DNA of 64,000 nt, taken from the NCBI RefSeq assembly GCF_003336245.1, contig NZ_QPHM01000004.1, forward strand, positions 62,001 to 126,000, in the 5' to 3' direction. The translations under genes and the position numbers were made by a program. A model generated the notes under the pieces. The model searched no databases, had not been told where the DNA came from, and saw nothing but the letters and a program-made list of their open reading frames with translations. Shown piece by piece: positions 8,352 to 62,678 of the stretch; positions within the stretch are counted from its first letter, which is position 1; each line of letters starts with the position of its first letter. The stretch is from Haloplanus salinus (GTDB taxonomy: Archaea > Halobacteriota > Halobacteria > Halobacteriales > Haloferacaceae).

Positions 8352-8399
8352 ATCCTACGTCACAACCTCAATGTGTCATTGTGATTATTGCGTAGGACT
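8352..8399. promoter_or_regulatory. Inverted GTCCTAC pair no. 1
   Basis: Arms TCCTACGTCAC and GCGTAGGAC separated by about 27 nt. It lies upstream of the SWIM gene leader. One of seven such pairs in the window; likely operator or promoter element. Confidence 0.6.
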
Positions 8400-8445
8400 A
8401 CTGGCATCTGCGACGAACGAGCGGTTTTACGGTTTGCAAACGGAA

Positions 8446-9197: not shown

Positions 9198-9207
9198 CGG
9201 AATGAGT

Positions 9208-9237
9208 CCCTCCACCGAAGCGGGGGACGACAAACGA
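9208..9237 (-). promoter_or_regulatory. Leader hairpin (type I)
   Basis: mRNA sense: GTTTGTCGTCCCCCGC, loop, GGTGGAGGG. It ends 10 nt before the ATG at 9197. The 3' arm carries the GGAGG ribosome-binding sequence. Confidence 0.75.
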
Positions 9238-9251
9238 GGAGTGGTGAGCCG

Positions 9252-9292
9252 ACCCTACGTTACATTATTAGTACGAAGGTAGCGTAGGATAA
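9252..9292. promoter_or_regulatory. Inverted GTCCTAC pair no. 2, between divergent genes
   Basis: Arms CCCTACGTTAC and GCGTAGGATAA, 41 bp overall. It lies between divergent genes and ends 3 nt before the plus-strand start at 9296, so it could control both directions. Confidence 0.65.
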
Positions 9293-9295
9293 TAC

Positions 9296-9769: not shown

Positions 9770-9814
9770 CACGATCGCCGTACGGAACCCACGGAAGACG
9801 AGAATCCTATAGAG

Positions 9815-10405: not shown

Positions 10406-10426
10406 TTATCGTATCGGCGGTGAGGA

Positions 10427-11014: not shown

Positions 11015-11025
11015 GATGAATTTGG

Positions 11026-11259
11026 TCAGGGGTAGAGGGCGAACGCAGTATCGTCGGCGTCGATACCGAATATTGTGCCAGGAGCGTTCCCTTCGGGATC
11101 AGCCGACGGGTAGAGGATCGTCCCGGACTCGAGTTCGAGAACGACTGTCGATTGCCAATCGTGGGCTTGCCAGCCTTCGCGTTCAAGTTCTTCGTTGGTC
11201 ATTTCACGGACGTCGACGATGCGCTGTCCGGCGATATTGTCGTCTGTGGTGGATTCCAT
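11026..11259 (-). CDS. Small conserved-looking hypothetical protein
   Basis: 77 residues beginning MESTTDDNIAG, with a beta-rich core (TVVLELESGTILYPSADPEGN) and the helix MTNEELEREGW. The start at 11259 is set by the leader hairpin 6 nt upstream. The function is unknown. Confidence 0.75.
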   Translation of the reverse strand: MESTTDDNIAGQRIVDVREMTNEELEREGWQAHDWQSTVVLELESGTILYPSADPEGNAPGTIFGIDADDTAFALYP

Positions 11260-11265
11260 TTTGAG

Positions 11266-11298
11266 TGGGCCTCCACCGCGTGGGGGCCCGACAAACGA
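11266..11298 (-). promoter_or_regulatory. Leader hairpin (type I)
   Basis: mRNA sense: CGTTTGTCGGGCCCCC, loop, GGTGGAGGCCC. The stem of the outer GGGCC/GGCCC is extended compared with other copies. It ends 6 nt before the ATG at 11259. Confidence 0.8.
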
Positions 11299-11305
11299 GC
11301 ACGAG
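11296..11305. repeat. Target-site duplication, left copy
   Basis: CGAGCACGAG, repeated exactly at 11528-11537 on the other side of the small inverted-repeat element. Confidence 0.8.
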
Positions 11306-11527
11306 CATGCGTCTTTAGTTAATACTCTCAGGAATACTGGTGAGAAGTGTTTTCCGGCCAAATAGCGCCGAGCTAGACCGGCTACGGCCAGAAATCACCG
11401 TTTGCGACAGACACGTATTGCTCAATCTTGAGAGGGAAAGAGCCTCAGCTTTGGATTTCTCTCTGTGAATACTGAGAGACATAATTTCAAGAAGAATATT
11501 ACTACTGGACTTAACTAAAGACGCATG
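11306..11527. mobile_element. 222-bp MITE
   Basis: A non-coding element bounded by perfect 17-bp terminal inverted repeats (left CATGCGTCTTTAGTTAA at 11306-11322, right complement at 11511-11527) and flanked by an exact 10-bp direct repeat. A 10-bp duplication and CTTTAGTTAA-like ends fit a MITE mobilised by an IS4-type (ISH8-group) transposase; the family assignment is from memory. The insertion is immediately after the stop codon of the 11538-13037 gene and before the leader of the next gene. Removing it restores a compact operon in which the leader follows the upstream stop by about 10 nt. Confidence 0.8.
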
Positions 11528-11537
11528 CGAGCACGAG
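11528..11537. repeat. Target-site duplication, right copy
   Basis: CGAGCACGAG, directly next to the TAA stop of the minus-strand gene ending at 11538. Confidence 0.8.
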
Positions 11538-13037
11538 TTAGTCCGCCGCGTCCTCGTTCTCGTTTTGGGAGTGCTGCACGGGAATCTCGAATATGATGTG
11601 ACTCTCCGTATCCGTGGTGAGTTCGTCCACCTCGGTCCAGGTGTACCAGGCTTCTTCGAGGAGATCGGTTCGGTTGGGTGTCTCGGAGATGGCGTAGACC
11701 GAGGCGCTAATGCCTTCGGTGGCGAAGCGAATATCGACGGTGAGTTGGTCGGTGTCATCAGGTGAGACACCCATCTGACGGGTTTTGCTATCCGGTACAT
11801 CGTCACTGCCGCTGTCCTGGTCGTCGAGATCGCCCCGGTAGCGGTGGGGGAGAACGTGGTCGGGGATATCGTTCTGCTCGATCACCGCGTCCTCCCGCTC
11901 ATCGAGTGTCTCCGTCAGGTCCGTGAGCTTCTCCTCGGCTGTCTCGATTGCGGTCTTCTTCCGGGCGTAGGTCTCATCCATGAAGTGGTACTTCCGGGTG
12001 TCGTCGTAGAAACGGATGCCCTCCGACCGCTCCCGTCGCTTGGTCCCCAGTATACCGTAGCCCGCCAGATAGTCAGTCCGATACTCGGCATGGGTGTCAC
12101 TCACGGTCTGCTCCCGGAGCCGAAAGCGCCCGATTGTTTCAGGCCAGTCGATATCTTCCTGCTCGGCCTGCTGTTCGGCCCGGTCGCGCTCCTCGGCCCG
12201 AACCTCCTTGATGTGCGGAACGAGTTCGTCGAGCGCGTCCTGGGCGCTCTCGTGGAACTGCCCGCTCCCGTCCCGCCGGGTCCCCACCGGGTCGAAGTAT
12301 TCGATGTCCCACTCACCGGCGCCGGATGAGACGTCGTCGTCCCGAAGCCACATTTCGGCCAAGTAGCCGTCCGGATGCTCAACGAGGATCGAGGGCTCTT
12401 GCTCGGCGTCCTCGTGCTCATCGACGATTATCCAGTGTTCGGGAACGTCCAGAGAGTCAACGATCCCCTCCATGACCGTCTGTTCGGTCACACTCTCGAC
12501 GCCCTCGAGCTCATCGACGTCGCCGCCGGCATCCTCGGTTGCCTGGGCATTGACGTCGATGGGGAGACCGTGGCGGGTGATTCCACGGGCCTTTAATTTC
12601 GGTATCGTTGTCCGGATCGATTTGGCCGAAGCGTCCCCGATTCCCGGCCACTCCGATAGGTCCTCGGTGTTATCTTCGACTTTCAGGACGTGACTGGCAC
12701 CCGAACCCATCTCTTTGATCGAGTTGGCGACGTTTCCAGTGACTTCGAAGGCTCGAGTGATCGTGGAGGGGGTCCATGAGCCGTTGGCCAGCGCATCGAG
12801 CGCACTCTCCCGAGTTCCACCATCGAGGTATTCCGGGTCCTCGGTCGCCTGGCTGCCGGTGAGATCCGTCTGCCCCTCGATCACCTCGGAAGCGAGGCTG
12901 GCCTGCTCGCCGGGGTTAGCAGGCGGGTCGCACACGTCGTTTCGGTTGTCGACGAACTCGTCACTCCTGTCCACGACCTCTCCAGTGGAGTTCGTCGAAT
13001 TGTTGCTACTCGCGTCGGTCGGCGGTGGTGAGGGCAT
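11538..13037 (-). CDS. Large acidic protein with possible helix-hairpin-helix
   Basis: 499 residues from the ATG at 13037, chosen because the leader hairpin ends 4 nt before it. Residues 1-80 are disordered. A helix-hairpin-helix-like segment (LSEWPGIGDASAKSIRTTIP) lies near residues 129-148 and suggests DNA contact. The middle contains a beta-rich domain (HWIIVDEHEDAEQEPSILVE) and a charged coiled coil (HIKEVRAEERDRAEQQAEQE). The C-terminal part repeats beta-rich character. No catalytic motif is recognised. It heads the operon that continues to the DUF6884-like gene. Confidence 0.8.
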   Translation of the reverse strand: MPSPPPTDASSNNSTNSTGEVVDRSDEFVDNRNDVCDPPANPGEQASLASEVIEGQTDLTGSQATEDPEYLDGGTRESALDALANGSWTPSTITRAFEVTGNVANSIKEMGSGASHVLKVEDNTEDLSEWPGIGDASAKSIRTTIPKLKARGITRHGLPIDVNAQATEDAGGDVDELEGVESVTEQTVMEGIVDSLDVPEHWIIVDEHEDAEQEPSILVEHPDGYLAEMWLRDDDVSSGAGEWDIEYFDPVGTRRDGSGQFHESAQDALDELVPHIKEVRAEERDRAEQQAEQEDIDWPETIGRFRLREQTVSDTHAEYRTDYLAGYGILGTKRRERSEGIRFYDDTRKYHFMDETYARKKTAIETAEEKLTDLTETLDEREDAVIEQNDIPDHVLPHRYRGDLDDQDSGSDDVPDSKTRQMGVSPDDTDQLTVDIRFATEGISASVYAISETPNRTDLLEEAWYTWTEVDELTTDTESHIIFEIPVQHSQNENEDAAD

Positions 13038-13041
13038 TCTG

Positions 13042-13074
13042 TGGGCCTCCGCCGTGCGGGGGCCGGACAAATCG
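13042..13074 (-). promoter_or_regulatory. Leader hairpin (type I)
   Basis: mRNA sense: GATTTGTCCGGCCCCC, loop, GGCGGAGGCCC. It ends 4 nt before the ATG at 13037. Confidence 0.8.
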
Positions 13075-13076
13075 AG

Positions 13077-13123
13077 CCCTACGCAACATACGGACACCGA
13101 CAGTTCGCACCGTAACGTAGGAC
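13077..13123. promoter_or_regulatory. Inverted GTCCTAC pair no. 3
   Basis: Arms CCCTACGCAAC and GTAACGTAGGACC, 47 bp overall, immediately upstream of the leader hairpin at 13042-13074. Confidence 0.65.
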
Positions 13124-13133
13124 CGGGCGACCG

Positions 13134-14336
13134 TTACGGCCGCTCGTCCACGACCTCGTCCCAGAGCCCTTCGTGGTATTCGACGTAGTTGCGCTCGGTC
13201 TGTGTCCGATATGCGAAAGTGCGCCCGTCTTCGTAGGTGACGATGATGGCCTGCTCGATGGGATAGGGGCCATCTTCGTCCTCGTAGTCCACTAGTTCTG
13301 CCCACTCATCGGGTGACCCAAGCGGATCGGGATCGCTGAGATCCCCTCCGTTGGCAGCCCAGATCGGGTCGTCCGGTTCTTTGACGGCGGGGTCGAGGCG
13401 TTCGATTGGCGTCTTCCCCTCGGCGGGCCACACTCCACGTTCCTCCCAGAATGCTCGCATCTCACGGAGGCTTCGACGGACGGTCTCGCGGATGGTGAGG
13501 AAGTCAGCGTCTTGCCACCCGTCGCGTGACCAGGATTCGCCTTTGTAGGCGATACCCTGCGGGCCGTTCCAATCGAGACCGATGATGTCCGCAGGCGGGT
13601 CCCCTGTGAGATTCGGTTGGGTGAGCTCCTGGATGACGCGCCATTGCTTCGTCGGGCTGGCTCCAAGGAGATGCACACGGTGACCGCGCCAGTTGGCGAT
13701 ATCCGAGAAGTGCCACGCTTTGATATTTGAACGCCCCATCGCGTATCCGAGGACGAGCGATTCCCCGGGGATATCAGCGTTGGCGACGATATCGATGGCC
13801 TCGCGACACTTCGGGACGATGATGATGGTCGCGTCTGGGTAGTCGGATTTGAGTTCGCGGGCGGCGTCGACAAACGTGTGTGCTTCCTCAGGAGTGCGGG
13901 CATCGCCAACGACACCGATTTCGGGCTCAACCTCACGGAAGCGGGTGAGATACCGATCGAGGTCGGGCCGATTGAAGTCGTTGTCGAGCATGAGGATCGG
14001 GACGTCAACGTTGCGGAGATGGCTATCCTGAATCCGACAGTCCTCGCGAGCGCCGGTAACGAATCCGAGGGCGTATGCCTCAGTCGCAAACGGGGCTCGA
14101 TGAAGGAACCCGATGTACTCGGCACGACGAGCGACTTCGATAGGAAGCGCGTCCTCTTCGCGTTCTCGTTCGGTGTTGCTGTCGGCCTCGATCTCGGACC
14201 GGTGGTCGGAATGCTCGCCTCCCGAGGCCCGGTGTCTGTCCTCGAGTGTGTCAAGAGTCGCCGGCGAGAGGTACGTGGAGAGGTCGAGTTGGCCGTGGCC
14301 GATGCTCTCGACTGAACTGGTATTGGAACTCACCAT
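13134..14336 (-). CDS. DUF6610-like, TGT-superfamily-like protein
   Basis: 400 residues. After a disordered 60-residue N-terminus it has the features of a TIM-barrel protein related to tRNA-guanine transglycosylases: FLHRAPFATEAYALGFVTGA, ILMLDNDF, ATIIIVPKCREAIDIV, LVLGYAMGRSNIKAW, VHLLGASPTKQW and IIGLDWNGPQ. The last Asp (GLDWNG) may be equivalent to the TGT nucleophile. I associate this pattern with DUF6610, but that label is from memory. Known TGT paralogues (DpdA) place 7-deazaguanines into DNA; whether this one does is inference. The C-terminal 60 residues form an extra beta-rich tail. A second TGT-like protein is at 20847-22064. Confidence 0.65.
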   Translation of the reverse strand: MVSSNTSSVESIGHGQLDLSTYLSPATLDTLEDRHRASGGEHSDHRSEIEADSNTEREREEDALPIEVARRAEYIGFLHRAPFATEAYALGFVTGAREDCRIQDSHLRNVDVPILMLDNDFNRPDLDRYLTRFREVEPEIGVVGDARTPEEAHTFVDAARELKSDYPDATIIIVPKCREAIDIVANADIPGESLVLGYAMGRSNIKAWHFSDIANWRGHRVHLLGASPTKQWRVIQELTQPNLTGDPPADIIGLDWNGPQGIAYKGESWSRDGWQDADFLTIRETVRRSLREMRAFWEERGVWPAEGKTPIERLDPAVKEPDDPIWAANGGDLSDPDPLGSPDEWAELVDYEDEDGPYPIEQAIIVTYEDGRTFAYRTQTERNYVEYHEGLWDEVVDERP

Positions 14337-48030: not shown

Positions 48031-49428
48031 TCAGGCGAACCGTTTCAGCGAGGATTTAGAGATTTCTCTAAATCGAGTATCCTCCATTACAATATCAAGG
48101 ATAGTCTCAGGATTGTGGAGTAGCCGATGAGAGTTGTGGCGGCCGCCGCCTTTTCCCATATTTACCTCTTTAGTTTCAATTACCTGACTGAGTTGCATCT
48201 CATCAAGGATATCCCGAAACCGCCGTATCCCGATCGTGTCCATATCTATTGCGTTAGTGATCTGCTGGTACGCATCATATAGTTCACCTGTGATAACATA
48301 ATCGTCGCGCGAGTAGAGCGACTTGGCAGAGATCGAGAGGCATGCGGCTTTCATTTGAGTTGGGGTTCCCTGGAGGAAGTCGCGGAATCGATCCTTTTCA
48401 AGTGTGTCCTGAGCGCTTCGCACATGATCTTCTCCAACAACGTCTGATCCCTCGCGATCAGCAAGCTCTCCCGCTGTCCTGAATAATCGCATTGCCTTTC
48501 GCGCATCTCCGTGTTCCTGTGCTGAGAAAGCCGCAACAAGAGGAATAACGTCATCGGTTAGGACTCCATCACGGAAGGCGTCATCACGGCCTCGAAGAAT
48601 TTCTTGAATTTGATTTGCGTTGTATGGGTCGAAATTAAGTTCTTGGGTCTGGAAGGCACTCTTCGTGCGTGGGTTTAGCTCGTCGAAGAAATTGATTTGA
48701 TTGCTTATTGCGATAATTCCAATTTGACACGACGTATCATTCGATTCGACAGCCTTCGCGAGACTCATCAAGACGTGGTCGCTCTTGAGAAGGTCGACTT
48801 CGTCGAGAATGATGATAGCCGAATCATAGTGATCGAGAATCTGCCAGAGGCGTTTGTAGAACTTGTCTTTCGGTAGCCCGGTATCGGGCATTTTCACGAT
48901 GTCTTCATCCTCGTCATAAATATCCTCGTCGTTCAGCTGTTGCCCGATTGTCGAGATGACTTGAACTTCAGTTGAGGATTTCGAACAGTCTAGATACGTA
49001 TGACCTATTCGGATATCCTCAACAGATGCATTGACAGCGCGACGAGTGACGTATCGGGAGACAAGAGATTTTCCCGTTCCTGTTTTCCCGGTAATTGAGA
49101 TATGATTTGGGGCACCACCATAGACAGCGTCGTTCAGACAGCTGCTGATAGTGGAAATATAATCGTCACGTCCGACAATTCGATCGCCATCAGGTACCCA
49201 ACCGACACGGACCATCTCCTTATTTTGGAAAATTCCCTTCCGTTGAGAAAAGAGCGGGTCGTCAACTTTGAATTGTGTACCGTCCCCGTCGCTTGATGGC
49301 GGTTTTCCATTCTCGTCTGGACTCCCCTTCGGTTCCGATGTTTGGACGCGATATCGGTCGTCTTGACCGTCTGAAGACGCAGATTCCAAATCTCGACTTT
49401 CATCGGAAGTCGAGGTCTCGTTTGACAT
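48031..49428 (-). CDS. orc1: Orc1/Cdc6 replication initiator
   Basis: 465 residues. Residues 1-60 are a Ser/Asp-rich haloarchaeal extension. The AAA+ domain has Walker A GKTGTGKS near residue 114 and Walker B IIILDEVD near 210, sensor-1 (GIIAISNQ), then a helical lid with EHGDARKAMRLFRTAGELAD. A winged helix fills the C-terminus (YVITGELYDAYQQITNAIDM). It should bind the ORB-like repeats just upstream of its start and load the MCM helicase. Lower GC than its neighbours. It is transcribed away from the origin, the usual arrangement. Confidence 0.95.
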   Translation of the reverse strand: MSNETSTSDESRDLESASSDGQDDRYRVQTSEPKGSPDENGKPPSSDGDGTQFKVDDPLFSQRKGIFQNKEMVRVGWVPDGDRIVGRDDYISTISSCLNDAVYGGAPNHISITGKTGTGKSLVSRYVTRRAVNASVEDIRIGHTYLDCSKSSTEVQVISTIGQQLNDEDIYDEDEDIVKMPDTGLPKDKFYKRLWQILDHYDSAIIILDEVDLLKSDHVLMSLAKAVESNDTSCQIGIIAISNQINFFDELNPRTKSAFQTQELNFDPYNANQIQEILRGRDDAFRDGVLTDDVIPLVAAFSAQEHGDARKAMRLFRTAGELADREGSDVVGEDHVRSAQDTLEKDRFRDFLQGTPTQMKAACLSISAKSLYSRDDYVITGELYDAYQQITNAIDMDTIGIRRFRDILDEMQLSQVIETKEVNMGKGGGRHNSHRLLHNPETILDIVMEDTRFREISKSSLKRFA

Positions 49429-49462: not shown

Positions 49463-49484
49463 TTCCCACCTCGACTTCCGACGT
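49463..49484 (-). repeat. ORB-like repeat 1
   Basis: Minus strand: ACGTCGGAAGTCGAGGTGGG. Weakest G-run of the orc1-side pair. Confidence 0.65.
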
Positions 49485-49557
49485 AAATCTACCACCGAAG
49501 AGAGTATACTGGAAGGACTACCTCGGTCTCCGAACAACCACAGACCCCCAACACACA

Positions 49558-49581
49558 CACACCCCTTCGGTTCCGTCGTTA
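49558..49581 (-). repeat. ORB-like repeat 2
   Basis: Minus strand: TAACGACGGAACCGAAGGGG followed by TGTG. Orientation opposite to repeats 3-8. Confidence 0.8.
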
Positions 49582-49755
49582 CCGATGAACGTGTACCCCT
49601 CACAGGAAGCATAGGTACGATCACGGTCCAGAGGATAGAACGCGCCTCTACGGCGTTTCTGTGCGTTTCAATCTGTTACCGAATTTCGTCTCGAACAAAT
49701 CAGTCGCTTCGCTTCTTCATATCTAGTACTTCGTCCTACGGAGTTGTTTCAGCTG

Positions 49756-49860
49756 CATTGTGATAAAGCTATGGGTAAACTAAATCAAATTTTACATGTT
49801 TTTATCGTGAGATAGGATACGGATCACCTCTAATATTTTCAGTCTAGTTACCTGCTTTCG
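49756..49860. other. AT-rich segment, candidate duplex-unwinding element
   Basis: Runs such as TAAATCAAATTTTACATG and TAATATTTTC between the two oppositely oriented ORB groups. Confidence 0.55.
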
Positions 49861-49867
49861 TGGCCGC

Positions 49868-49891
49868 TAACGTCGGAACCGGTGGGGTGTG
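49868..49891 (+). repeat. ORB-like repeat 3
   Basis: Plus strand: TAACGTCGGAACCGGTGGGG followed by TGTG. Confidence 0.85.
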
Positions 49892-49933
49892 TCTGATCAT
49901 CCTATCCTCAATCTGGGTGGTCACCAATTCATC

Positions 49934-49957
49934 TAACGCCGGAACCGAAGGGGTGTG
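49934..49957 (+). repeat. ORB-like repeat 4
   Basis: Plus strand: TAACGCCGGAACCGAAGGGG followed by TGTG. Confidence 0.85.
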
Positions 49958-50131
49958 GGTCAACCATCGTGGGCTGGTAGAGTCTCCCGAGTATAACTCT
50001 CGTCTCTAACTTTCATATTCTATTTGTGGGATGCCGAATTATTCACTCTCAACGAGAGTTCTGAGGTAGTCTCCACCCGTCTTTTCATCTTATTTGTTCC
50101 GCTCTAATACTAAGAGAGTAGATTCACATGC

Positions 50132-50155
50132 TAACGTCGGAAATGGTGCGGTATC
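50132..50155 (+). repeat. ORB-like repeat 5
   Basis: Plus strand: TAACGTCGGAAATGGTGCGG followed by TATC; the G-run is degenerate. Confidence 0.65.
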
Positions 50156-50196
50156 TCATCTTGATCTCTGGTGAGCTAATACGATCTATCCTTCAT

Positions 50197-50220
50197 TTAC
50201 GACGGAAGTCTTGGGGTGTC
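50197..50220 (+). repeat. ORB-like repeat 6
   Basis: Plus strand: TTACGACGGAAGTCTTGGGG followed by TGTC. Confidence 0.8.
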
Positions 50221-50229
50221 CCTTTGTGT

Positions 50230-50253
50230 TAACGTCGGAACTCGTGGGGGGCC
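50230..50253 (+). repeat. ORB-like repeat 7
   Basis: Plus strand: TAACGTCGGAACTCGTGGGG followed by GGCC. Confidence 0.75.
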
Positions 50254-50265
50254 GACCATCTCTCC

Positions 50266-50289
50266 TTACGACGGAACCGGAGGGGTGTC
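50266..50289 (+). repeat. ORB-like repeat 8
   Basis: Plus strand: TTACGACGGAACCGGAGGGG followed by TGTC. Repeats 6 to 8 are spaced 33-36 bp apart, close to helical phase. Confidence 0.85.
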
Positions 50290-50549
50290 CCCTCTCTGAA
50301 TTTTCTTTCCCCACGTTGGATCGTGGTATATCCGATGTTCCGATTCACCTGTTCGTATGGAAGAGCGAGCCCCGTATGAGATATCACCTGCACTCCCCTG
50401 TCAGGCCAAGCACTAACCTCAACATCCGGGTCCTGAACGGCATAGCCAAAAATAAAGTTGCATATTGTTCTATCGCCAAGACGGGAAACTCTGAGCTCTC
50501 CCACTGCTGTTGGAGGACACAAGCAAAGCGGTGTAGTAGCACTTCACTA

Positions 50550-52175: not shown

Positions 52176-53783
52176 TTACTGGGCGGGAGCTGGCTCCGAC
52201 TCGATGTCGCTGCCGGCAGGAGCGAGGTCCTCGGCTGCCGCCTGGACTGCCGCTTCGATGGCCGAGATATCACTGTTGTAGACGCTGAGAACGGCGTCCG
52301 CTGCATCCGATTCACCGCTCTCGAGCGCGCCTAGTCGCGCCCGGGTTGCGTCGATGGTTTCAGCCATCCACGAGTCGCGAATCTCCCCGCCCACCGTCGA
52401 GATGTGCTCGGGCTGGATGGAGACGTTCACGCCGGCGTCCGTCTCGTACTGGTGGACCTTGCCGACCACTGCGACGAACGACGGGGTCTCGGCCGAGCGG
52501 AGCACAGCCATCGGCTCCTGCTGGTACTGCCCCGCGTAGATGTTCACAACTTCACCACCTGCCATGACGCGCCCCTTCCAGAACTCGGAGTCATCGCCGA
52601 CATCCGAGGTTTCGATGAGAGCACCGACCACGAGCACGCGGTTGACCGCCTCACCCGAGGGGAGTAGCGTGAACTTTGGCGCACGATCGTCGCCCTCGTC
52701 CTCTGGACGGGTGAACGAGTGGGTCGCCATGTTCAGCTCTTCAGCGAACACGCGCTTGGCAGGTTGGCGCTGCGTGGCGGCGTCTGCGAGGGCTGCGTTA
52801 CTGAGGCCGGCATTCTCTCCCGAGTAGGAGATCTCCTCGACCTCGTCGACGAGGAAGTACTCGCCGATGACCGGGCCCCGGATATCATACGTCCTGCCGA
52901 TGAGCAACTCACGGAGCTCCGTTTCGACGACGCTGGGATCGAGGGCCTCGGAAGCCATCTCCATGGCGTCATCGAGACTCACTTCGGAGACTGCCTCAGT
53001 CATCTCAGCGTTGAACAGCGTGCGGACAGCACGGTTGCCATCGTCGAGGATGGCCTTCAGGCGAAGATCGAACACGCCATCGACGTCACCGTGTTCGGAG
53101 CAGCGACCGTTCTGGAGGACGCGCGTGCAGTCCTCGCTGGGGCAGCGCTTGATGAGGCCCGAACCCTCATCGAGGCCGACGAGCGTCCCAGTGGCGCGAA
53201 TCGACCCGTCCGTGGGTTCGACGGCCTCCTCGGACTCCGTGACGCTGCTCGCCTTGTTGAGCGAGATGGAGTACTTGCCCTCGTACTCGTTCGTGACCGC
53301 CGAGGTGATGTCGTAGGTGACGCCTTCCTCGAGTGTCGGGAGCGAGTCAGTGTTCTTCGCCCAGACAACGAACTTCATTTGGGCCGTTTCGTCGGCGATG
53401 AGGCCGACCTGCCGCATGGAATCGGAGTGCGGCTCCCAGAGGTCGACGATCTGCGCCCGGACGTCCACCCATTCCTCGTCACCGAGGTTCGAGATATCCT
53501 CGAGAGCTATCCGGTCGAAGCCCCGGGAACTGCTGTTACCGGTGCCGACGAAGCCGGCAACCGCCTTGACCCCGTCCGAGAGGTCGTTGGATTCGAGGTC
53601 GTAGTCGTTGATGACGTTACGAACTGTCGTCTCGACCGCCGTCTCGATCGGAACGGAGAACTCCTGCATGGCCGCAATTCGCTCTTCAATGCTCGACACG
53701 GGGATCTCCACGCCCATCTCGCCGAACTCGCCGCTGATGTCTTCCGCGCGCTGTGCTACGTCTGTGGTAATGTTTGCACACAT
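52176..53783 (-). CDS. RPA fused to RPA-associated protein
   Basis: 535 residues. Residues ~1-330 are an RPA like the 41219-42169 product: EEWVDVRAQIVDLWEPHSDS, MRQVGLIADETAQMKFVVWA, zinc motif CPSEDCTRVLQNGRCSEHG near 214. Residues ~343-535 match the RPA-associated protein: QPAKRVFAEELNMATHSFTR, KFTLLPSGEAVNRVLVVGAL, NIYAGQYQQEPMAVLRSAET. In other haloarchaea these are two adjacent genes, and this replicon also carries the unfused pair. The fusion fixes a 1:1 ratio. It likely protects single-stranded DNA in replication or transfer. The ATG at 53783 starts the conserved part. Confidence 0.9.
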   Translation of the reverse strand: MCANITTDVAQRAEDISGEFGEMGVEIPVSSIEERIAAMQEFSVPIETAVETTVRNVINDYDLESNDLSDGVKAVAGFVGTGNSSSRGFDRIALEDISNLGDEEWVDVRAQIVDLWEPHSDSMRQVGLIADETAQMKFVVWAKNTDSLPTLEEGVTYDITSAVTNEYEGKYSISLNKASSVTESEEAVEPTDGSIRATGTLVGLDEGSGLIKRCPSEDCTRVLQNGRCSEHGDVDGVFDLRLKAILDDGNRAVRTLFNAEMTEAVSEVSLDDAMEMASEALDPSVVETELRELLIGRTYDIRGPVIGEYFLVDEVEEISYSGENAGLSNAALADAATQRQPAKRVFAEELNMATHSFTRPEDEGDDRAPKFTLLPSGEAVNRVLVVGALIETSDVGDDSEFWKGRVMAGGEVVNIYAGQYQQEPMAVLRSAETPSFVAVVGKVHQYETDAGVNVSIQPEHISTVGGEIRDSWMAETIDATRARLGALESGESDAADAVLSVYNSDISAIEAAVQAAAEDLAPAGSDIESEPAPAQ

Positions 53784-53863
53784 GTTTGTCACTCTCTGAG
53801 GGGATTTCTGAGAAACGGCTTCGGGACTGGGCACTCGACCGTCGCGCCCCACCCCACCCGCTC

Positions 53864-54611: not shown

Positions 54612-56828
54612 TTACCTGAAGAGTCGCGAGAGGAAGCCCTGTTTCTTGCGTCGTTCGCGTTCTTCGGCCTTGATACGTTCGTTCGCCTCTTCGTACTCCT
54701 GGAGGACGGCGTCGATTCCTGTGAGTGTCTCTTTTGCCGTCTTTGCGTCTTCACGCCGAATCTTCGGACGCATAATCTGCTTGACTCGCTTCACGGGGTC
54801 GTCTGGAAGCTCGGCAGCGTCTCTCGAGAGCTCCCCGAGGTGCTTGAGTTGCGTACGATACTGAGCGCGTTCCTCCATCAGCTCATCCATCGTTTCGAGG
54901 TAGACCCTGAGGACAAACCGGAGGCGTCCGTTCTCCTCGCCCTGCTCGCTGAGTTCGGCGAGTTCCCTTGATTGCCGGTCGAGTTTCCGAGCGAGAATTC
55001 GCTGGTCTTCACGAGCGAGACGCATTGCCTGGTCGGTCGCGGAGTAGCCCCGGATCTCACCGATGGTCCAATCCGCTGGGTACTTCTCGTCATCATTGAG
55101 CGTCGGGTCGGTGCGTTCCCATCCCGGCCCGGCGTCGCGAGCGGACGCTTCCATCATTCGCTGGGTGCTCTCGTCGAGGTCGGAATCGGTGTCCACCCCA
55201 CGCGGGTCAGCGGGTTCGCGACCATCCGTCGTCGGCGGCGCGGCCCCTGGCCCGGCCGTTCTCTGCCCTGAGACAGGACTATCATCAGCACTTGTCCCAG
55301 CTGTCGTGGAACCTTTGGGTGTGGTCGTCGACGAAGCGGCGTCATGACTATGGGCCCGGGCGTGGCTGTTCCCCTGTTCCGGTTCCTGCCTAGTTGCGTA
55401 GGCGTCGGCGACTGCTGCCGGGTCGCCATCTTCGTCGGGGTTGACGGGAATGAACTCTTCGTCGTCCTTGAGGTCGGGATGGATATCGGCATCGACGGTG
55501 GTAGTCTCCCCGCTCGTCCCCTCGCTGTGTAGTGGGCCGCTCTCGTCCGTAGTGGTGTCGACGGTCTCGGACGGGCCGGAATCGGAGCCAATCTTGAAAT
55601 CCATTGGCGGGAGATCGTGGTCGTCCGCCCCCGAGGATGACGATGACTCCGAGCCGTTGGAATCGGTCTTCGAGAACTTTACACCATCTTTGCTCGGGAC
55701 TTCGTAGTAATCGTCCACCCGGAGGAGCGCACGGGCGAGCGTGACATCGCCGTAGGTTGCGCCACTCGCGTAGTGACGCCGCTCCCACTTATCGCGGTGC
55801 AGGCCGGATTCCTCGAACAGCGCGTTCATCCGTTTGGGGTCTTTCGCCGTCCAGAACGCGAGGTTGTGAGCGAGCGCCATATCTGCCTCGGACTGGCTTG
55901 GATAATCGGCGTTATGGGACCCCCACATCGAGGCGTCGCCTTCGTAGAGACGTTGCCTGCGGTCACCTCCCTGAGAGTCGAACATCCGCGTGAGTATCTC
56001 TTGATCTGATAGATCCACACCGGGTCCCGCGAGGTCGGCGAACGTACTCGGACACTTGGAGGGAAGGTACTTCGTCGCGACCCGCTCGAGGGCCTCCTTG
56101 ATTGCGGGGTCGTGGATGCTCCTGAAGACGTCTCCATAACGTTCGATGAGTGAACTTGCACTCTGCTGCGCCCGGGCCTCGGTGTCGCGGCGACCATCCG
56201 CGTCACCTCTGTTTTCTGAATCTTCAACTTCCGTCCCTCTGGTGAGAGTTGTCTGTCCATCTGGTCTCACGCCATCCTGGATGAACTCGCGGTGAACGGT
56301 CTCTATCTCATCCTGACGCTTTCGGATTTTCGTGGGGGTTCCCTCGACGTGAGCACCAGTCGTAGCGAAGTACCGTCCGGAGTCATACATCTCGATAGGG
56401 CCCTTCCGGTTTCCGCCGGGCGGGAGTTTACCACTTGCGAGGATATGCACACCAGTTCCGGAAGCGGAAACCTCCGTATATGAGTCGACCTTGTCGATGA
56501 TTGTTTGCGTCCATTCCTTGATTTCACCAGTAACAGAATCACGACAGTTATCGAGGTCGATACCGACGATGGTGACGTCGTCACTGAAGACGAACCCCAG
56601 ACCATCGGCGTTCACGCGAGAGTCGTTGAGTGAATCCCAGGCGGTGTCGAAGTCTCGGCGATGTTCGGGGTTGGTAACGTCGGCATTAATGTCACCACTT
56701 GTCCGATATGGTTTAGTCGGAATCTTGGTAGGTTTCCCGTCACGCATACCTTCACGCCAGCAAATCCAATTCCTGATAGTGCGGATTTTGTCTGGAATCC
56801 CGTCTTTAGCTACGTCTACTTTTGGCAT
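54612..56828 (-). CDS. PrimPol-type primase/polymerase without helicase
   Basis: 738 residues. The N-terminal 170 residues match the NrS-1-like archaeo-eukaryotic primase-polymerase of phages and plasmids: WICWREGMRDGKPTKIPTKP, catalytic Asp pair in VGIDLDNC (residues 91 and 93), SASGTGVHILASG (His128) and MYDSGRYFATTG. Residues ~260-390 match the region that follows it in such proteins (LSDQEILTRMFDSQGGD, WGSHNADYPSQSEADMALAH). The usual superfamily-3 helicase is missing; instead there are 230 acidic disordered residues and a C-terminal coiled coil with basic end (KRVKQIMRPKIRREDAKTAK). It probably primes plasmid or transfer replication together with the host helicase. GTG 56837 is an alternative start; ATG 56828 is better placed. 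Confidence 0.82.
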   Translation of the reverse strand: MPKVDVAKDGIPDKIRTIRNWICWREGMRDGKPTKIPTKPYRTSGDINADVTNPEHRRDFDTAWDSLNDSRVNADGLGFVFSDDVTIVGIDLDNCRDSVTGEIKEWTQTIIDKVDSYTEVSASGTGVHILASGKLPPGGNRKGPIEMYDSGRYFATTGAHVEGTPTKIRKRQDEIETVHREFIQDGVRPDGQTTLTRGTEVEDSENRGDADGRRDTEARAQQSASSLIERYGDVFRSIHDPAIKEALERVATKYLPSKCPSTFADLAGPGVDLSDQEILTRMFDSQGGDRRQRLYEGDASMWGSHNADYPSQSEADMALAHNLAFWTAKDPKRMNALFEESGLHRDKWERRHYASGATYGDVTLARALLRVDDYYEVPSKDGVKFSKTDSNGSESSSSSGADDHDLPPMDFKIGSDSGPSETVDTTTDESGPLHSEGTSGETTTVDADIHPDLKDDEEFIPVNPDEDGDPAAVADAYATRQEPEQGNSHARAHSHDAASSTTTPKGSTTAGTSADDSPVSGQRTAGPGAAPPTTDGREPADPRGVDTDSDLDESTQRMMEASARDAGPGWERTDPTLNDDEKYPADWTIGEIRGYSATDQAMRLAREDQRILARKLDRQSRELAELSEQGEENGRLRFVLRVYLETMDELMEERAQYRTQLKHLGELSRDAAELPDDPVKRVKQIMRPKIRREDAKTAKETLTGIDAVLQEYEEANERIKAEERERRKKQGFLSRLFR

Positions 56829-56850
56829 GGATATCACCTATTGTCAGTCC

Positions 56851-56887
56851 GCCTCGTCGCCTGACTTCGCGGGGCGAGACAAACCGG
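56851..56887 (-). promoter_or_regulatory. Leader hairpin (variant)
   Basis: mRNA sense: CGGTTTGTCTCGCCCCGCG, loop, GGCGACGAGGC. The stem is extended by CTCG/CGAG. It lies 22 nt before the ATG at 56828. Confidence 0.65.
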
Positions 56888-57025
56888 TTTCGTCGATTTC
56901 CCCCGACTCAGGGCGAAAACCAACAGACAGCACACGAATTGTGAGGGAATGACCCCCCTCCCGTATCCAATACTATGTAAAATCACTCCGGAGGTGTCGA
57001 ATGGAGCGATCTGGTTGGTTGATAG

Positions 57026-57145
57026 CCTGTCTAAAGCGCTTTGCGCACGTGCGCTAAGTGCTGACGCTGATGGGGTGTTAGAAAAGGCAGATTCTGACGA
57101 TAGAGCTCCCATACTGCCGATGCGCGTCACACGCGAATTTTGCGC
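57026..57145. repeat. Long direct repeat, copy 1
   Basis: About 120 bp containing the palindromes AAAGCGCTTT (57033-57042) and GCGCACGTGCGC (57042-57053), then CTAAGTGCTGACGCTGATGG and GGTGTTAGAAAAGGC. Copy 2 follows about 190 bp downstream. Confidence 0.75.
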
Positions 57146-57215
57146 GAAGTTGCGAGCACTCGAAACCCCCGCAACCCCAGTGGATTCGTTTTGAACCTCA
57201 AAATGCCGTTTTAGA

Positions 57216-57335
57216 GCCTCTAAAGCGCTTTGAACCCGCGCACTAAGTGCTGACGCTGAAGGGGTGTTAGAAAAGGCGGACTTGCGAGGTACAGCGTCCG
57301 TACTGCTCGTGCGCGTCGTGCGCGGACTTTGTGCG
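57216..57335. repeat. Long direct repeat, copy 2
   Basis: Shares TCTAAAGCGCTTTG, CTAAGTGCTGACGCTGAAGG and GGTGTTAGAAAAGGC with copy 1, then diverges toward GCGCGTCGTGCGCGGACTTT. It could be a replication or transfer origin component. Confidence 0.75.
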
Positions 57336-57350
57336 AATGCGTGGATGTGA

Positions 57351-60300
57351 CTAGTCGAGATCATCGAGGAGATTTGGAGCGCCGATGAATGTCCACTCAC
57401 CATCTTCACCCCAGATGGCTTCGGTAAGCTTCTCGTAGGTCCGCTTACTTCTCTTGGGGGGCAGTTCGTCGATCCGGCCAGCATTTGCGAGGGCTCGAGT
57501 GATATCCCATGCGACTGATAGATTAGGCACAATCCAGATTTTCTTCTCGACGTCGAACCTGTTGAAGTCGTCATAGTGCTTGACCATCAGCGAGGGATGG
57601 ACGTTTGAGATGACCTCTCCAATAATGACGGGATCTTTGCCATCGTAGCCGACCACGTCTGGCTTCACATCAGTCCCGTGAAGTGGTGTATATTTTTTAA
57701 CAAAATAGTGATTGTTCGGGTCACGGGCGAGTGAGCGAGCGAACGCCTCTACCATCACCTTGTGGTAGGTCTTCTCGTTCACATCGCCCTGGTCTTCGCC
57801 CGTCGCGACCTTCGCTCCACACGCTCGCTGGCCGTCGCGAGTCACAGTGTAGTAGACCCGCAGATTTTCGGTCTGCTTCTCGAGGTAGCCGAGTTCGATG
57901 AGTTTCTCTTCGTCTACCTCATCAAACTGATTTTTTATCCTCTCCATCGAGTTCACAACGTCGTAGGCAGGGTGGTTGCCGTTGACTGTGGTGACAATCG
58001 CGGTCAGGAAATGGCGTTCTTCAACTGTCAGACTCTTATCTATACCTGATCGAGTCTCTCTATCCTCTTTGTCGGGACTCTCAGCGGCGTTCTCGTTGGG
58101 TGCATCAGACGCACTCTGATCGTCTGTATTGTTGGCACTTGTTCCTCTCTCCTCGTCGGTGTCTGTATCGTCGGTTTTGGACGGATCTTCGGAGCTAGGG
58201 TCAACTCCACCGTAGAGAAAGCCGTCAACTCGATCTCCCAGATTACTGCCCCCTTCATCAGCTAATCGCGGAACCCCGCCATCGGTCTCGTTTTCATCGC
58301 TCGTCTCTCGCGGTGGGCGGCGTGAACCGAGATCGTCTGTGAGGTCGTCTGCGGGAACTCGACTAGCCCCTGATTCGGCCTGTTCGCCGTGCTCGTTCGA
58401 TCGGGGTTGTCCCTCTGTGCTGGGGGCGTTTGGACTCCCCGTGCCGAGTTGCGTCTGAGGGTTGGACCCAGTCTTCTTGCCTTCGTCGTTTGCGTCTCCG
58501 TTCTCGCCGGACACGACAATCTCGAAGTCACGATTCTGGCTATTTTCACTACCGTTGATGCCGCGTCTGTGTTCGGCTGAGAGCTGCTCGTCGGAAGCGT
58601 CGGTGTTGCTTCCGGGTAGCAGGCAGTGGTCACGCCGCGTTGTACGGGTGATTTCTGCGTTGATGTCGCTGAAGACATGACCCTGCGTCGACACGGTCTT
58701 GTTGATCACGGGGTTGTCGGAATCGCTGTGACCGTCGGGGATATCGACGGGGAGCATCGTCACGATTTCGGGGATATCGGTCATGAACCCGGTGTCAGGG
58801 AGTTGAGCGACCCATTCTCCACGCGGGAGCGACGTGATCCGGTCGACGAGTTCCTCGTCCTCGATGCCTTCGTGGAACAGCGTCATCACGAGTTCGTCGT
58901 CGACGGCGAGTTTCCCGATGAGTTTCGTATTAATGTTCCGCAGAATTTCCTTGTACGAGGAAACGTCGAGGGCATCGGCCTTGACCTGCTCTGCGAAGTG
59001 GACGATGACTTCGAGGGAGAGACCGAATTCACGCCCGTCAGGAATCATGTCGTCGCGTACCAGTTCGGACTGGAGCATCGCCGCAGCTTCGTCGATGATG
59101 AGGTTGATAACGTATCCATCCTCGACCGGCGGGGTGTTCCTAAGTCGATGACGGAGACGAGCGCCCGACCAGATGTAGTCGAGCAGCATGAACGTAAACA
59201 GATTGCTCGAGGCGGGCCGGAGGTCGCCCGTGTCGATGAGGATGACCTTCTTCGAGGCGAGGACGTCCTGGATGTCGAACATCGGCGATTGGTTGGCGTA
59301 GCAGCCCTTCTCGTCGTTCCATTCAGGAACGAAGTTGAGGACACGCCAGACGAAGCTCCGCTCAGCGAGCTTTGTGATACGGTTCATGACGGCATCGATC
59401 GACGTTTGGAACCGCTGCTCGTCGGCGTGGAGATGCCGCGTGAGAGCGAGGCGAAGCGTCCGGTCGCTCACTTCGGGGAGTTGGCCCTGCTGCATCTCGT
59501 AGGCAACCTGGAACAGGTCTTGGATGGGCCATGCGTCCCGGCCGTACACGGGGTCGAACATCGCCTTGATGAGGTTGTTGAGGATCTCTTGGGCGACGAA
59601 CGCCTGCTGGGTCATTTCTCGGCCCAGCACGTACACGAGGAGTTCGTTGTAGCGGTCAACTTTCTCTTGGACGGCGACCGTGCGTGAGACGCCGGCAGCG
59701 AGTTGCGGTCGAATGTCGAAGTACGGGAAAGCAAGTACCTCGTCGTTCGGCCCTGGAACGGGGACGTGGAGAACGTCATCGAGGTTGCCGAACTTCTTGA
59801 AGTGTGCTTTCTTGTACTCGTCGGCCATTGTCCCACCTTTCCGGTCGAAGACGAAGATGGGGCCGTCAAACGATTGGTAGGCCGACAGCGCATCGTTGAC
59901 CATTGCGGTTGTCTTCCCGCCGCCCGTCGTCGCTGCGCGGAGGATGTGGTGCGTCAGCTGCTCTGCACTGAGACGGATGGGAATGTCTCGCCGGTTGTCG
60001 ACGGCGGTCTCGGCGTACCCGATGTGCATTCCATAATCGTACTGCGAGAGCAGGTCCTCATCTGTCGCCGTGAGTGGCGAGCGAGCGTCGGGTGACCCGC
60101 CCGAGGACCCACGCGAGGCTCGCGGGAGGGCGTCCGTGTGTGGGACGACGACGAAGTTCGCGAGTTCGTCGGGAGAGGCACAGATGAGTGGGTCACCTTT
60201 ACTGAAGCGCCCCGTAAAACCGCTGATGCTGGCCTGACGGGCGTGGCACAGGCGGGCGAACTCTTTGCTGTTGAACCCGAGGAGTTCCCCCTCGATGCCA

Positions 60301-61625
60301 TAATATGGCCCCGAGAGCGACGTGAACGCGTTTGAGATACTCTGGACAGTCTGTTCGTCGCAAGCAGCCCGGAGTGTGAGGTCGAACGTTGTGGTGGGTT
60401 GTTTGCGGTCGATCTGTTCCATCCGCGACCCCGTGATCTTGTCATCATCGCCGGCGCTGACGGACCCTCCGACCTGCTCGGAAATGTCTCCACGGTGGAT
60501 GTTTCGGCGTTCCTGGTCGGATGTTCCAAACATCTGCCGGGCAAACTCGTTTTTAAACGCGGAGAGCGTCCCGTGGTTACCCATTTTGAGGTTCCGCTTG
60601 TGGGTTTCAGCCTCACTAGTCCAGTTAGAGCGTGGCCTGAAGGTGGCCTGGAAGATGAACGGATCGTCGGTGTGGACGGCCTGCTCAAGGAGCACACTGA
60701 GCGGCGAGCGATACTGATCGTCGCTGTCGATAGCCAAATCGCTGAACGGCCGAAGCAGCGTCATCCAGTCGTCTTTTTTTGAGGCAATGCCTTTCCACCG
60801 GACGAGCGAGGGACGCTTCTCTTCACGGATTTCCTCGGGACGGAGCGGAACGCCTTCCCTGACGAGCTGTTCTTCAGCCTGCTCGGAAGAAAGATTGTGC
60901 CCGCTTCCAATACTATGGTCCACAAAAACCTCGGGGTCCTCGAAGCCAGCGAGGTTCTCGAGGTCGATAATGTCGTCGAGCGTAGCGATACGTCGCCCGC
61001 CAACGCGGGCGTTCCCGTCTTCTGAGGCAAACGCCGCGACGGGGTTGAACGGGACGATCTCGAACTCGAAGGACTCGGGATACATCGCGGCGATGTTTGC
61101 GGCGAGCGTCTTGAACGCAGTCGCCTCGTAGGGCGTCACGGAGATATAGAAGTCGAAGCGCTTCGTGTTCCGCGGCTTGTGGATGATAAACTCAAACGTC
61201 TTCTTGTAGTCCTTGATGCCGAGGCTGGCTTTGAGATTGAACCGCGAAGTGCTCGTCACGCCCGCCCGGTACAAGCCAAAAAGCCCCGCGATGACGTTCC
61301 CGGGCGTGACCTGCTCACGGGCGGGTGAGATGTGGATATACGGCCGGGCTTCGATCGGGTCACTGAGTTTCTTTCCCGGCCCAGTCGTGCCCTTGACCTC
61401 GTAGGATGTGAGTTGCTCCTCACGCTCTTCGTTCTCCTGATCGACCCCGTTCTCGGTCGGAGGGATGCGGTCAAAGTTGGTCGATTCTTCCTGGTTCTGA
61501 GTGAGGTGGTCCCGTCCCGATTCGGTCGAGTCTTCTCCGCGCGTTGACGACAAAGAGTTGATGCGATCGTGGAGGGTGTCCTGTTCATGATCGTCCCGGC
61601 TGGGGTCCGTGGATGGGGGAGTCAT
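57351..61625 (-). CDS. VirB4/HerA-type conjugation ATPase with nuclease-like C-terminus
   Basis: 1424 residues from MTPPSTDPSRDD. The N-terminal 400 residues include IHISPAREQVTPGNVIAGLF and a ferredoxin-like region (FDFYISVTPYEATAFKTLAA). The ATPase core has Walker A ATTGGGKTT near residue 563, Walker B INLIIDEAA near 843, and FVFDRKGGTMADEY, as in VirB4/TraG/HerA pumps. A 300-residue acidic linker follows, then a winged-helix-like region (LTVEERHFLTAIVTTVNGNH) and a C-terminal HGTDVKPDVVGYDGKDPVII plus GEV, resembling a PD-(D/E)xK nuclease fold with the Lys replaced. It likely powers DNA or protein transfer at the membrane with the VirB2-like pilin encoded next to it. Confidence 0.82.
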   Translation of the reverse strand: MTPPSTDPSRDDHEQDTLHDRINSLSSTRGEDSTESGRDHLTQNQEESTNFDRIPPTENGVDQENEEREEQLTSYEVKGTTGPGKKLSDPIEARPYIHISPAREQVTPGNVIAGLFGLYRAGVTSTSRFNLKASLGIKDYKKTFEFIIHKPRNTKRFDFYISVTPYEATAFKTLAANIAAMYPESFEFEIVPFNPVAAFASEDGNARVGGRRIATLDDIIDLENLAGFEDPEVFVDHSIGSGHNLSSEQAEEQLVREGVPLRPEEIREEKRPSLVRWKGIASKKDDWMTLLRPFSDLAIDSDDQYRSPLSVLLEQAVHTDDPFIFQATFRPRSNWTSEAETHKRNLKMGNHGTLSAFKNEFARQMFGTSDQERRNIHRGDISEQVGGSVSAGDDDKITGSRMEQIDRKQPTTTFDLTLRAACDEQTVQSISNAFTSLSGPYYGIEGELLGFNSKEFARLCHARQASISGFTGRFSKGDPLICASPDELANFVVVPHTDALPRASRGSSGGSPDARSPLTATDEDLLSQYDYGMHIGYAETAVDNRRDIPIRLSAEQLTHHILRAATTGGGKTTAMVNDALSAYQSFDGPIFVFDRKGGTMADEYKKAHFKKFGNLDDVLHVPVPGPNDEVLAFPYFDIRPQLAAGVSRTVAVQEKVDRYNELLVYVLGREMTQQAFVAQEILNNLIKAMFDPVYGRDAWPIQDLFQVAYEMQQGQLPEVSDRTLRLALTRHLHADEQRFQTSIDAVMNRITKLAERSFVWRVLNFVPEWNDEKGCYANQSPMFDIQDVLASKKVILIDTGDLRPASSNLFTFMLLDYIWSGARLRHRLRNTPPVEDGYVINLIIDEAAAMLQSELVRDDMIPDGREFGLSLEVIVHFAEQVKADALDVSSYKEILRNINTKLIGKLAVDDELVMTLFHEGIEDEELVDRITSLPRGEWVAQLPDTGFMTDIPEIVTMLPVDIPDGHSDSDNPVINKTVSTQGHVFSDINAEITRTTRRDHCLLPGSNTDASDEQLSAEHRRGINGSENSQNRDFEIVVSGENGDANDEGKKTGSNPQTQLGTGSPNAPSTEGQPRSNEHGEQAESGASRVPADDLTDDLGSRRPPRETSDENETDGGVPRLADEGGSNLGDRVDGFLYGGVDPSSEDPSKTDDTDTDEERGTSANNTDDQSASDAPNENAAESPDKEDRETRSGIDKSLTVEERHFLTAIVTTVNGNHPAYDVVNSMERIKNQFDEVDEEKLIELGYLEKQTENLRVYYTVTRDGQRACGAKVATGEDQGDVNEKTYHKVMVEAFARSLARDPNNHYFVKKYTPLHGTDVKPDVVGYDGKDPVIIGEVISNVHPSLMVKHYDDFNRFDVEKKIWIVPNLSVAWDITRALANAGRIDELPPKRSKRTYEKLTEAIWGEDGEWTFIGAPNLLDDLD

Positions 61626-61875
61626 TGGCCCACCATCTTCTTGCGAGTAGACACACCCTTCCGCCGACACTGTACAACGGTCGAGTGAGTCCCAACCCAT
61701 CGGGCGATTCGGTTAGATAGGCACACTATTGGACTGTTTGTTGTCATTTTGGATTGTGTTGTGTCGTTTGATTCAGCCGCTACTGGATTGTGACATAATT
61801 CTCCCCACAATTGGAAATTCGCGCACGAGCGGAGAGCGGGGAAGGCGTCCGTACCGTCTGGCCAGTGTAGACGGT
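61626..61875. other. Intergenic region with imperfect direct repeats
   Basis: TTGGACTGTTTG, TTGGATTGTGTTG and CTGGATTGTGACA occur between 61730 and 61793. No gene. May bind a regulator of the ATPase gene. Confidence 0.4.
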
Positions 61876-62220
61876 TTACGGGGTGGCGATCCACTCCAAG
61901 ACAGCCACGAAGATCGTGACGCCGAAGTAGAAAATCGTCATGCTCATTCCACCAATCATGAGCCACATCCCGTTCTCAGCGCGGTCGGAGTTTTTCCGTG
62001 CAGTGAACCACACGATCGCGCCAAAGGCGAGAGCCACGAGGCCAGCGTACTTCAGAACGAGCAGGACGGTGTCGTATAGATTGGTCATGATACCCTCGAA
62101 ATCGGCTGGGGGCCCACTCTGCGCGGCGACTGGATCCACGAAAACGACTAGGACGAGGATTCCCAAGACGAGGGATGTGCTGTGCTTTCTCAGGAGTTTC
62201 TTTGTTCGGAGGGTGCTCAT
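61876..62220 (-). CDS. VirB2/TrbC-like pilin
   Basis: 114 residues from MSTLRTKKLLRKHSTS. A cleavable-type signal sequence (LVLGILVLVVFVDPVAAQS) is followed by two membrane helices (TVLLVLKYAGLVALAFGAIV and WLMIGGMSMTIFYFGVTIFV) joined by a polar loop, the layout of VirB2/TrbC-type pilins of type IV secretion and conjugation systems. The upstream part of the frame (to 62433) is unlikely because ATG 62220 begins the signal sequence. It stands next to the VirB4-like ATPase, which supports the assignment. Confidence 0.75.
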   Translation of the reverse strand: MSTLRTKKLLRKHSTSLVLGILVLVVFVDPVAAQSGPPADFEGIMTNLYDTVLLVLKYAGLVALAFGAIVWFTARKNSDRAENGMWLMIGGMSMTIFYFGVTIFVAVLEWIATP

Positions 62221-62414
62221 GTTACCCACCGGGAAGAGGTGAGAATCTATTATAAAGAAGAGTAGACTACACCTAATGTGGCAGATGTAGAACGGCGGTT
62301 TTAGGGTGTCAAAGGGCGGGATTACGGGGGTTTTCACCGGAACAGTTATGTGGTTACCAATAGCACACCTAATTGTTGGACTTGGAACACCCTCCAGTGC
62401 CTCCTTGTCCATAG
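62221..62414. other. Intergenic region, divergent promoters
   Basis: AT-rich stretch at 62250-62280 (TATTATAAAG) is a plausible promoter for the pilin gene. It contains CGGGGGTTTTCACC, similar to a piece at 44970. Confidence 0.4.
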
Positions 62415-62678
62415 GTGATTGCAGTGCCAACAAACAGCTCCAAGCCCACCACGAGTGATAACACCGACCGCGATCCTGAGACGACGATCAACGTCTGCCT
62501 CCACCGGGATACGCATACGCGGTTGACCGCCTACAAGAACGATAACCCCCTGATAGAGAAGTCGTACGACGAAGCGATCAACGAAATCCTTGAAAAAATC
62601 GACTTCCCACAGGCTGAAATGATCGAGAACAAGTACCTTCCGTCAATGTCCGACGCACATCCTAGCGACTCAGACTGA
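62415..62678 (+). CDS. Ribbon-helix-helix/CopG-like small protein
   Basis: 87 residues (GTG at 62415; a second GTG at 62424). TTINVCLHRDTHTRLTAYKN followed by SYDEAINEILEKIDF has the strand-helix-helix shape of ribbon-helix-helix antitoxins and repressors, like the VapB-type families of haloarchaea. No toxin gene is seen next to it. It could repress the divergent transfer genes. Confidence 0.55.
   Translation: MIAVPTNSSKPTTSDNTDRDPETTINVCLHRDTHTRLTAYKNDNPLIEKSYDEAINEILEKIDFPQAEMIENKYLPSMSDAHPSDSD

Follow-up and report, generated by a model that had tools for sequence, protein, structure and literature searches.

A repeat-bearing gap between ATPase and PrimPol genes in haloarchaeal plasmids as a candidate recognition site for DNA transfer

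Our analysis showed that the gap between the genes of a TraD/HerA-like ATPase and a PrimPol in a haloarchaeal plasmid carries two related direct repeats, that this arrangement is conserved among related plasmids, and that in more distant relatives the type of repeat follows the C-terminal end of the ATPase. We give about an even chance to the reading that the repeats are a DNA recognition site of the plasmid's coupling ATPase, i.e. an oriT/clt-like transfer locus. The DNA analyzed (the window) is a stretch of 64,000 nucleotides from a contig of 156,361 bp in the haloarchaeal genome of Haloplanus salinus. In the window the gap comprises 522 bp from the ATPase stop to the PrimPol ATG (56829-57350). 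On one side lies the gene for a 1449-aa TraD/HerA-like DNA-translocating ATPase (57351-61700, minus strand), assigned from weak profile matches (DUF87 at E 9e-4, and TraD-, TrwB- and CedB-type matches) that were all under the curated cut-offs, and beyond it a gene for a TrbC/VirB2-like pilin (61876-62433, minus strand; 27.4 bits, cut-off 27.9). On the other side is a PrimPol with an NrS-1-type HBD (54612-56828, minus strand; profile match), which has many invariant residues in the alignment, presumably including the AEP catalytic motifs. It is followed by genes for an RPA-like single-strand DNA binding protein (52176-53852, minus strand; NF005553, E 6e-95, 318 bits, cut-off 353) and an Orc1/Cdc6 initiator (48031-49428, minus strand; profile match).

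The initial annotation had described two direct repeats beside the ATPase gene, and these proved to be real. Comparison of the repeats placed the PrimPol-proximal copy A at 57030-57148 and the ATPase-proximal copy B at 57219-57337, 189 bp apart and identical at 92 of 119 bases (77%), compared with a top score of 53/119 in 200 Markov shuffles of the gap. The three blocks named at the outset were all found in both copies: AAAGCGCTTT at 57033-57042 (copy A) and 57222-57231 (copy B), CTAAGTGCTGACGCTGA at 57054-57070 and 57243-57259, and GGTGTTAGAAAAGGC at 57074-57088 and 57263-57277. The gap with both repeats is single copy, and a search of the genome returned the self-match only. Across seven representative plasmids AAAGCGCTTT and GGTGTTAGAAAAGGC showed no conservation; the elements retained by 12 or more of the 14 copies are TGC.C.CGTGCGC.AAGT, ACG and, further on, TAC, TGC.CG and TTTG blocks. 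The CGTGCGC is central to a near-palindrome, CTTTGCGCACGTGCGCTAAG, at 57039-57058 in copy A. GCGCAC occurs five times in the 522-bp gap, with 0.24 expected from the window's own density; every other sampled 522-bp stretch held three at most, and five were reached by one of 2000 shuffles. Following AAGT, the alignment revealed a clade-specific block (57060-57067 in copy A, 57249-57256 in copy B), which reads GCTGACGC in the window and CCCGACGG or TGTAACGG in other clades and is unrecognisable in Haloarcula pelagica. Copies A and B of one plasmid agree in this block, with a difference of one base in two near-identical plasmids, and when copy B was shuffled among the seven representative plasmids none of 5000 shuffles reached the real within-plasmid agreement. 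Such co-variation would be expected from a co-evolving binding protein or from gene conversion between copies A and B.

The gap was matched in nine of 170 genomes of the family, its own genome included, the weakest match (G007, 32 bases) being probably due to chance. A PLSDB search for the gap and its flanks gave 11 plasmids, belonging to nine haloarchaeal genera, with 80% or more of the query covered in ten; in the eleventh record, Haloarcula pelagica, the match was confined to the PrimPol gene. The gap itself is present in all 11 records, and together with the PrimPol, ATPase and pilin neighbours this supports the earlier view that a cis-acting site belongs to a transfer/PrimPol module. Its length is 521-523 bp in 11 of the 12 aligned plasmids, window included (the value of 523 bp stems from a start codon that was set one base away, and was 522 in a separate gap analysis), and 531 bp in Haloarcula pelagica. 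Single-base gaps suffice to align everything outside the Haloarcula row, and the window gap is 56-68% identical to the gaps of four distant members. The proposal that the named blocks would recur next to similar ATPase genes held in part, as the exact blocks are absent in distant relatives while equivalents in the same place and with the same spacing are recognisable in 10 of the 11 records, all except Haloarcula pelagica.

The order ATPase, gap, PrimPol also recurs in other haloarchaeal plasmid families. A contig scan with the PrimPol alignment gave the best 80 of 227 relatives, 77 of which entered the gap analysis (L118, L122 and L124 were left out), and in 65 of these 77 loci a long open frame is followed by a gap of 200-700 bp and then by PrimPol. 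The window-like class has 15 loci (L052-L066), and 50 gaps lie outside it, in what we call the D5 class. Gap length is near-fixed per subfamily, e.g. 248-268, 351, 367, 388, 419 or 521-531 bp, and many gap families have distinct repeats of their own, such as TGTTCCACCC, GTTACGGCA, GGTCAGGG, TGTTCAGGG, TGTCCACGCA and TGTCCAGGGTA. In an 8-mer repeat search with 100 shuffles per gap, 44 of the 65 gaps had a P of 0.05 or less, and in 20 of the 65, including L052-L054, L057 and L058 of the window family, no word was found three times. Upstream of the ATPase a VirB4 homologue is present in 40 of the 50 loci of the D5 class, and multi-spanning membrane ORFs in 13 of the 15 loci of the window's class, where TrbC-like pilin matches were also seen, mostly under the Pfam cut-off. 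The host has a second, related ATPase-gap-PrimPol locus on another contig (L050, G000:C3, about 7546-13798), with an ATPase that is 53% identical. In Salinigranum rubrum the ATPase gene (L034, 12750-16975) consists of two overlapping frames, perhaps through a frameshift or sequencing error. The gaps of L067-L131 contain a conserved ACCAACTAGTATAGA-like box 108-146 bp upstream of PrimPol (45 of 50, with the pattern loosened stepwise), in several cases followed by a hairpin-like AACGGG...CCCGTT; box and hairpin are a possible promoter or nick site.

Outside the window-like class the repeats could be typed, as 44 of the 50 gaps have at least two copies of a word, 40 of these 44 with a usable ATPase. 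Removal of near-duplicates left 34 loci and 110 pairs with ATPase cores at least 85% identical. With repeat labels that we set after the repeats had been seen, the ATPase tail (the last 105 residues) was 84.7% identical between loci of the same repeat type and 36.1% between loci of different type, and none of 5000 permutations reached this. A difference was also seen in the segment just before the tail (87.7 vs. 69.4; 0/5000 permutations). Neither the ATPase core (92.9 vs. 92.0; 1714/5000) nor the N-terminal 300 residues of PrimPol (89.5 vs. 88.4; 1254/5000) tracked the repeat type. Three pairs are exceptions: L087 has the same type as L081 and L088 with a tail identity of 39%, and L077 and L098 carry different labels with tails 89% identical. 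Of 19 aligned relatives, 18 have a tail that matches Pox_D5 and four a tail that matches an RFX DNA-binding domain, and the tail of the L089 ATPase matches the C-terminus of P4-family primases. We take the Pox_D5 tail and the winged helix of the phage P4 alpha protein to be the same domain family, which fits the P4-family match. In P4 alpha the C-terminal winged helix binds the repeats of the phage origin (PMC4234260). Since the repeat type follows the tail and the tail matches Pox_D5, the ATPase likely reads the repeats in the D5-class relatives, as judged from sequence comparison. Recognition by PrimPol, as originally suggested, is not supported: in these separable relatives it is the C-terminal domain of the ATPase, and not the PrimPol N-terminal part, that the repeat type follows. 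In the window-like class such a link with the tail is inseparable from common descent.

The end of the window ATPase gave no significant match to Pfam and no D5 domain. A structural model of this end (pLDDT 78) contains a predicted winged-helix domain (57810-58040, minus strand; model residues 32-108, Z up to 7.3) and a predicted restriction-endonuclease-like domain (57354-57791, minus strand; model residues 115-260, Z up to 8.2). The best structure match, 1y88 with Z 8.2, is middling, and Foldseek returned no match at E 0.001 or better. E129, D159, E173 and K185 in the nuclease-like domain are invariant in 19 aligned sequences and may be nuclease residues. A model of the ATPase core was too poor for use (pLDDT 44), and the core profile had no match among PDB sequences. 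The class II tail gave only weak matches to PDB sequences (best E 0.016), and a profile comparison of the class I with the class II ATPase ends gave no significant link. The window ATPase, putatively a hexamer, may nonetheless act like its D5-class relatives despite having no D5 match.

The gap is crossed by a stop-free frame of 176 codons (56834-57364, minus strand), which starts inside the ATPase end, 14 bases short of the end of the gene, with a conserved ATG (GTG in Haloarcula), and stops immediately ahead of the PrimPol ATG. In each of the 12 aligned plasmids this frame on the ATPase/PrimPol strand is without stops to about the PrimPol start, and base swaps between relatives would create stops in it 74 times out of 3630. 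Such a frame would be explained if it encoded a true 176-aa protein containing an internal duplication, and similar frames occur in most of the related gap families, but the codon signature of a gene is missing: in seven plasmids the synonymous share was 0.284 compared with 0.678 and 0.682 (about 0.68) in the flanking genes, and the changes were equal over the three codon positions. The same lack of signature was seen in E367, A351 and B388, the other families with enough differences. A protein-coding gap was rejected on these grounds despite the open frame, and we consider a small protein gene very improbable. The description of the repeats as non-coding can be kept as regards amino-acid constraint and needs to be amended for the one minus-strand frame that runs open through the gap. 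In 26 gap representatives of our choosing the longest same-strand open stretch covered on average 95% of the gap, compared with 64% on the opposite strand and 72% in 63 further co-directional gaps taken from these plasmids, and a cover of at least 95% was found in 20 of the 26 representatives vs. 17 of the 63 controls. Against shuffles, p was 0.05 or less in 17 of 26 representatives and in 0 of 52 length-matched controls; the Fisher p of 1.2e-14 over the 26 is too optimistic, as the representatives are related. When 63 of the 65 gaps were counted (L062 and L083 were dropped, their ATPase end being apparently misassigned) the open cover was 94% vs. 61%, with p 0.05 or less in 38 vs. 4. In most A-type gaps the open stretch reaches only about 79% of the length, and in L131 59%. 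Our tentative explanation of the open frame is selection that lets ribosomes pass through a cis-acting site to PrimPol, and an open, unconserved frame over such a site is a separate, testable oddity.

Regulation of transcription is another function that could maintain sites in this gap, with the repeats as autoregulatory operator or promoter elements for PrimPol or the transfer operon. The alignment of the window family does contain a conserved TATA-like box, located some 140-150 bp ahead of the PrimPol ATG (56967-56979; TACATAGTATTGG on the minus strand), promoter-like or a further site, and a comparable box is found in 45 of the 50 gaps of the other class. Against this explanation stand the spaced motifs, spread over 250-530 bp in gaps of fixed length, and their covariation with an ATPase that pumps DNA, and we regard it as improbable. 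Fixed gap length and conserved blocks would also be seen with a structured non-coding RNA. This we find barely credible, as the gap had no match in Rfam at gathering scores and its strongest block, a near-palindrome with no interruption, is of a kind typical for DNA sites.

A second replication origin resembling that of P4, where the ATPase would be an origin-binding helicase, PrimPol would prime, RPA would coat the DNA and the repeats would be iterons, is in our view possible, if somewhat unlikely. PrimPol matches phrog_1829 (phage DNA primase) over model positions 5-308 (E 4e-75) and the C-terminus of the L089 ATPase matches the same model at 667-760 (E 3e-4), which looks like the outcome of splitting a phage primase-helicase. 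The Pox_D5 tail of the relatives and the adjacent RPA-like gene also fit an origin. These likenesses of the D5 domain and PrimPol to phage replication proteins count against a role in transfer, as does Haloarcula pelagica, which has kept the gap without recognisable repeat blocks. However, the ATPase core has DUF87/TraD-type matches only, VirB4 or pilin genes adjoin, and Orc1 (Cdc6_C match) was found in 19 of 19 plasmids tested. Beside orc1 of the window lies a set of inverted ORB-like repeats (49465-50291), six direct copies of a 28-base unit and inverted partners, ending in G-runs, which in this position and by the G-string criterion fit the haloarchaeal ORBs described in PMC3528665. These are likely the vegetative origin, separate from the gap repeats, which have a different motif and lie about 7.6 kb from orc1. 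The maximum of the detrended GC skew was within 4 kb of orc1 in three of five complete plasmids and away from the gap in all five (within 4 kb of it in none), a weak test, since the maximum was picked after the traces had been seen and without strand correction, and the minimum was near neither orc1 nor the gap. For the plasmid of the window the trace has a broad maximum, about 32 kb away from orc1. The gap as main replication origin is disfavoured by Orc1 in all 19 plasmids, by the skew maximum and by the ORB-like repeats at orc1; the presence of Orc1 does not exclude a second origin.

We favour a site for transfer because of the VirB4, pilin and membrane ORF context and because vegetative replication is otherwise provided for. 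In such a transfer locus the C-terminal DNA-binding part of the ATPase would bind the repeats next to its own gene and load on the plasmid, a type IV secretion-like channel would move the DNA, and PrimPol and RPA, encoded just downstream, would prime and protect the strand. Against transfer, the MOB-suite calls in PLSDB are non-mobilizable for all 11 relatives. In the window short repeats adjoin the translocase gene in cis. Translocases of the clt type have a C-terminal sequence-specific winged helix matched to repeats, to which the covariation and Pox_D5 tail of the relatives and the predicted winged helix of the window ATPase may correspond. The closest likeness is to TraB and clt of Streptomyces, where an FtsK-family translocase recognises short TRS repeats in cis (PMC4170104), whereas the plasmids here are archaeal, have T4SS-like genes (VirB4 or pilin) and PrimPol adjacent, and their binding and transfer are putative. 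The oriT of bacterial conjugative plasmids similarly has repeats beside transfer genes, but our relatives are without a MOB-suite-typed relaxase and no nick site was recognised. P4 alpha (PMC4234260) shares a C-terminal winged helix with repeats and the link to a primase; in the relatives, however, the D5-type domain is part of a TraD-like ATPase, with PrimPol encoded separately as the primase, and the window ATPase is without a D5 match. With the haloarchaeal orc/cdc6-ORB origins (PMC3528665) the gap shares repeats beside a replication gene, in a different motif. Archaeal conjugative plasmids have VirB4/VirD4-like motors and few or no recognised relaxases (PMC9905601, PMC12857230, PMC3158045), and passages of PMC9905601 and PMC12857230 state that no archaeal relaxase has been recognised. 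pT33-3 and other such plasmids resemble ours in their VirB4/VirD4-like ATPases and in that no relaxase was identified, and passages of PMC12857230 on them describe no transfer site. Among the matches listed in the open-licence literature on haloarchaeal PrimPol origins, VirB4/VirD4 plasmids and archaeal oriT or relaxase, no paper described the gap site.

A more specific proposal, which is speculative and unlikely to hold in full, is a relaxase-free start of archaeal transfer, where an ATPase with its own DNA-binding and nuclease-like domains would recognise, and may nick, the adjoining site and PrimPol would then prime, the site itself lying inside a passenger frame kept open only for ribosomes moving from the ATPase gene to the primase gene. 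The repeat type could help to classify these plasmids, and the gap offers a concrete, testable candidate transfer origin in haloarchaea, where a site and its matched motor could show how archaeal transfer starts.
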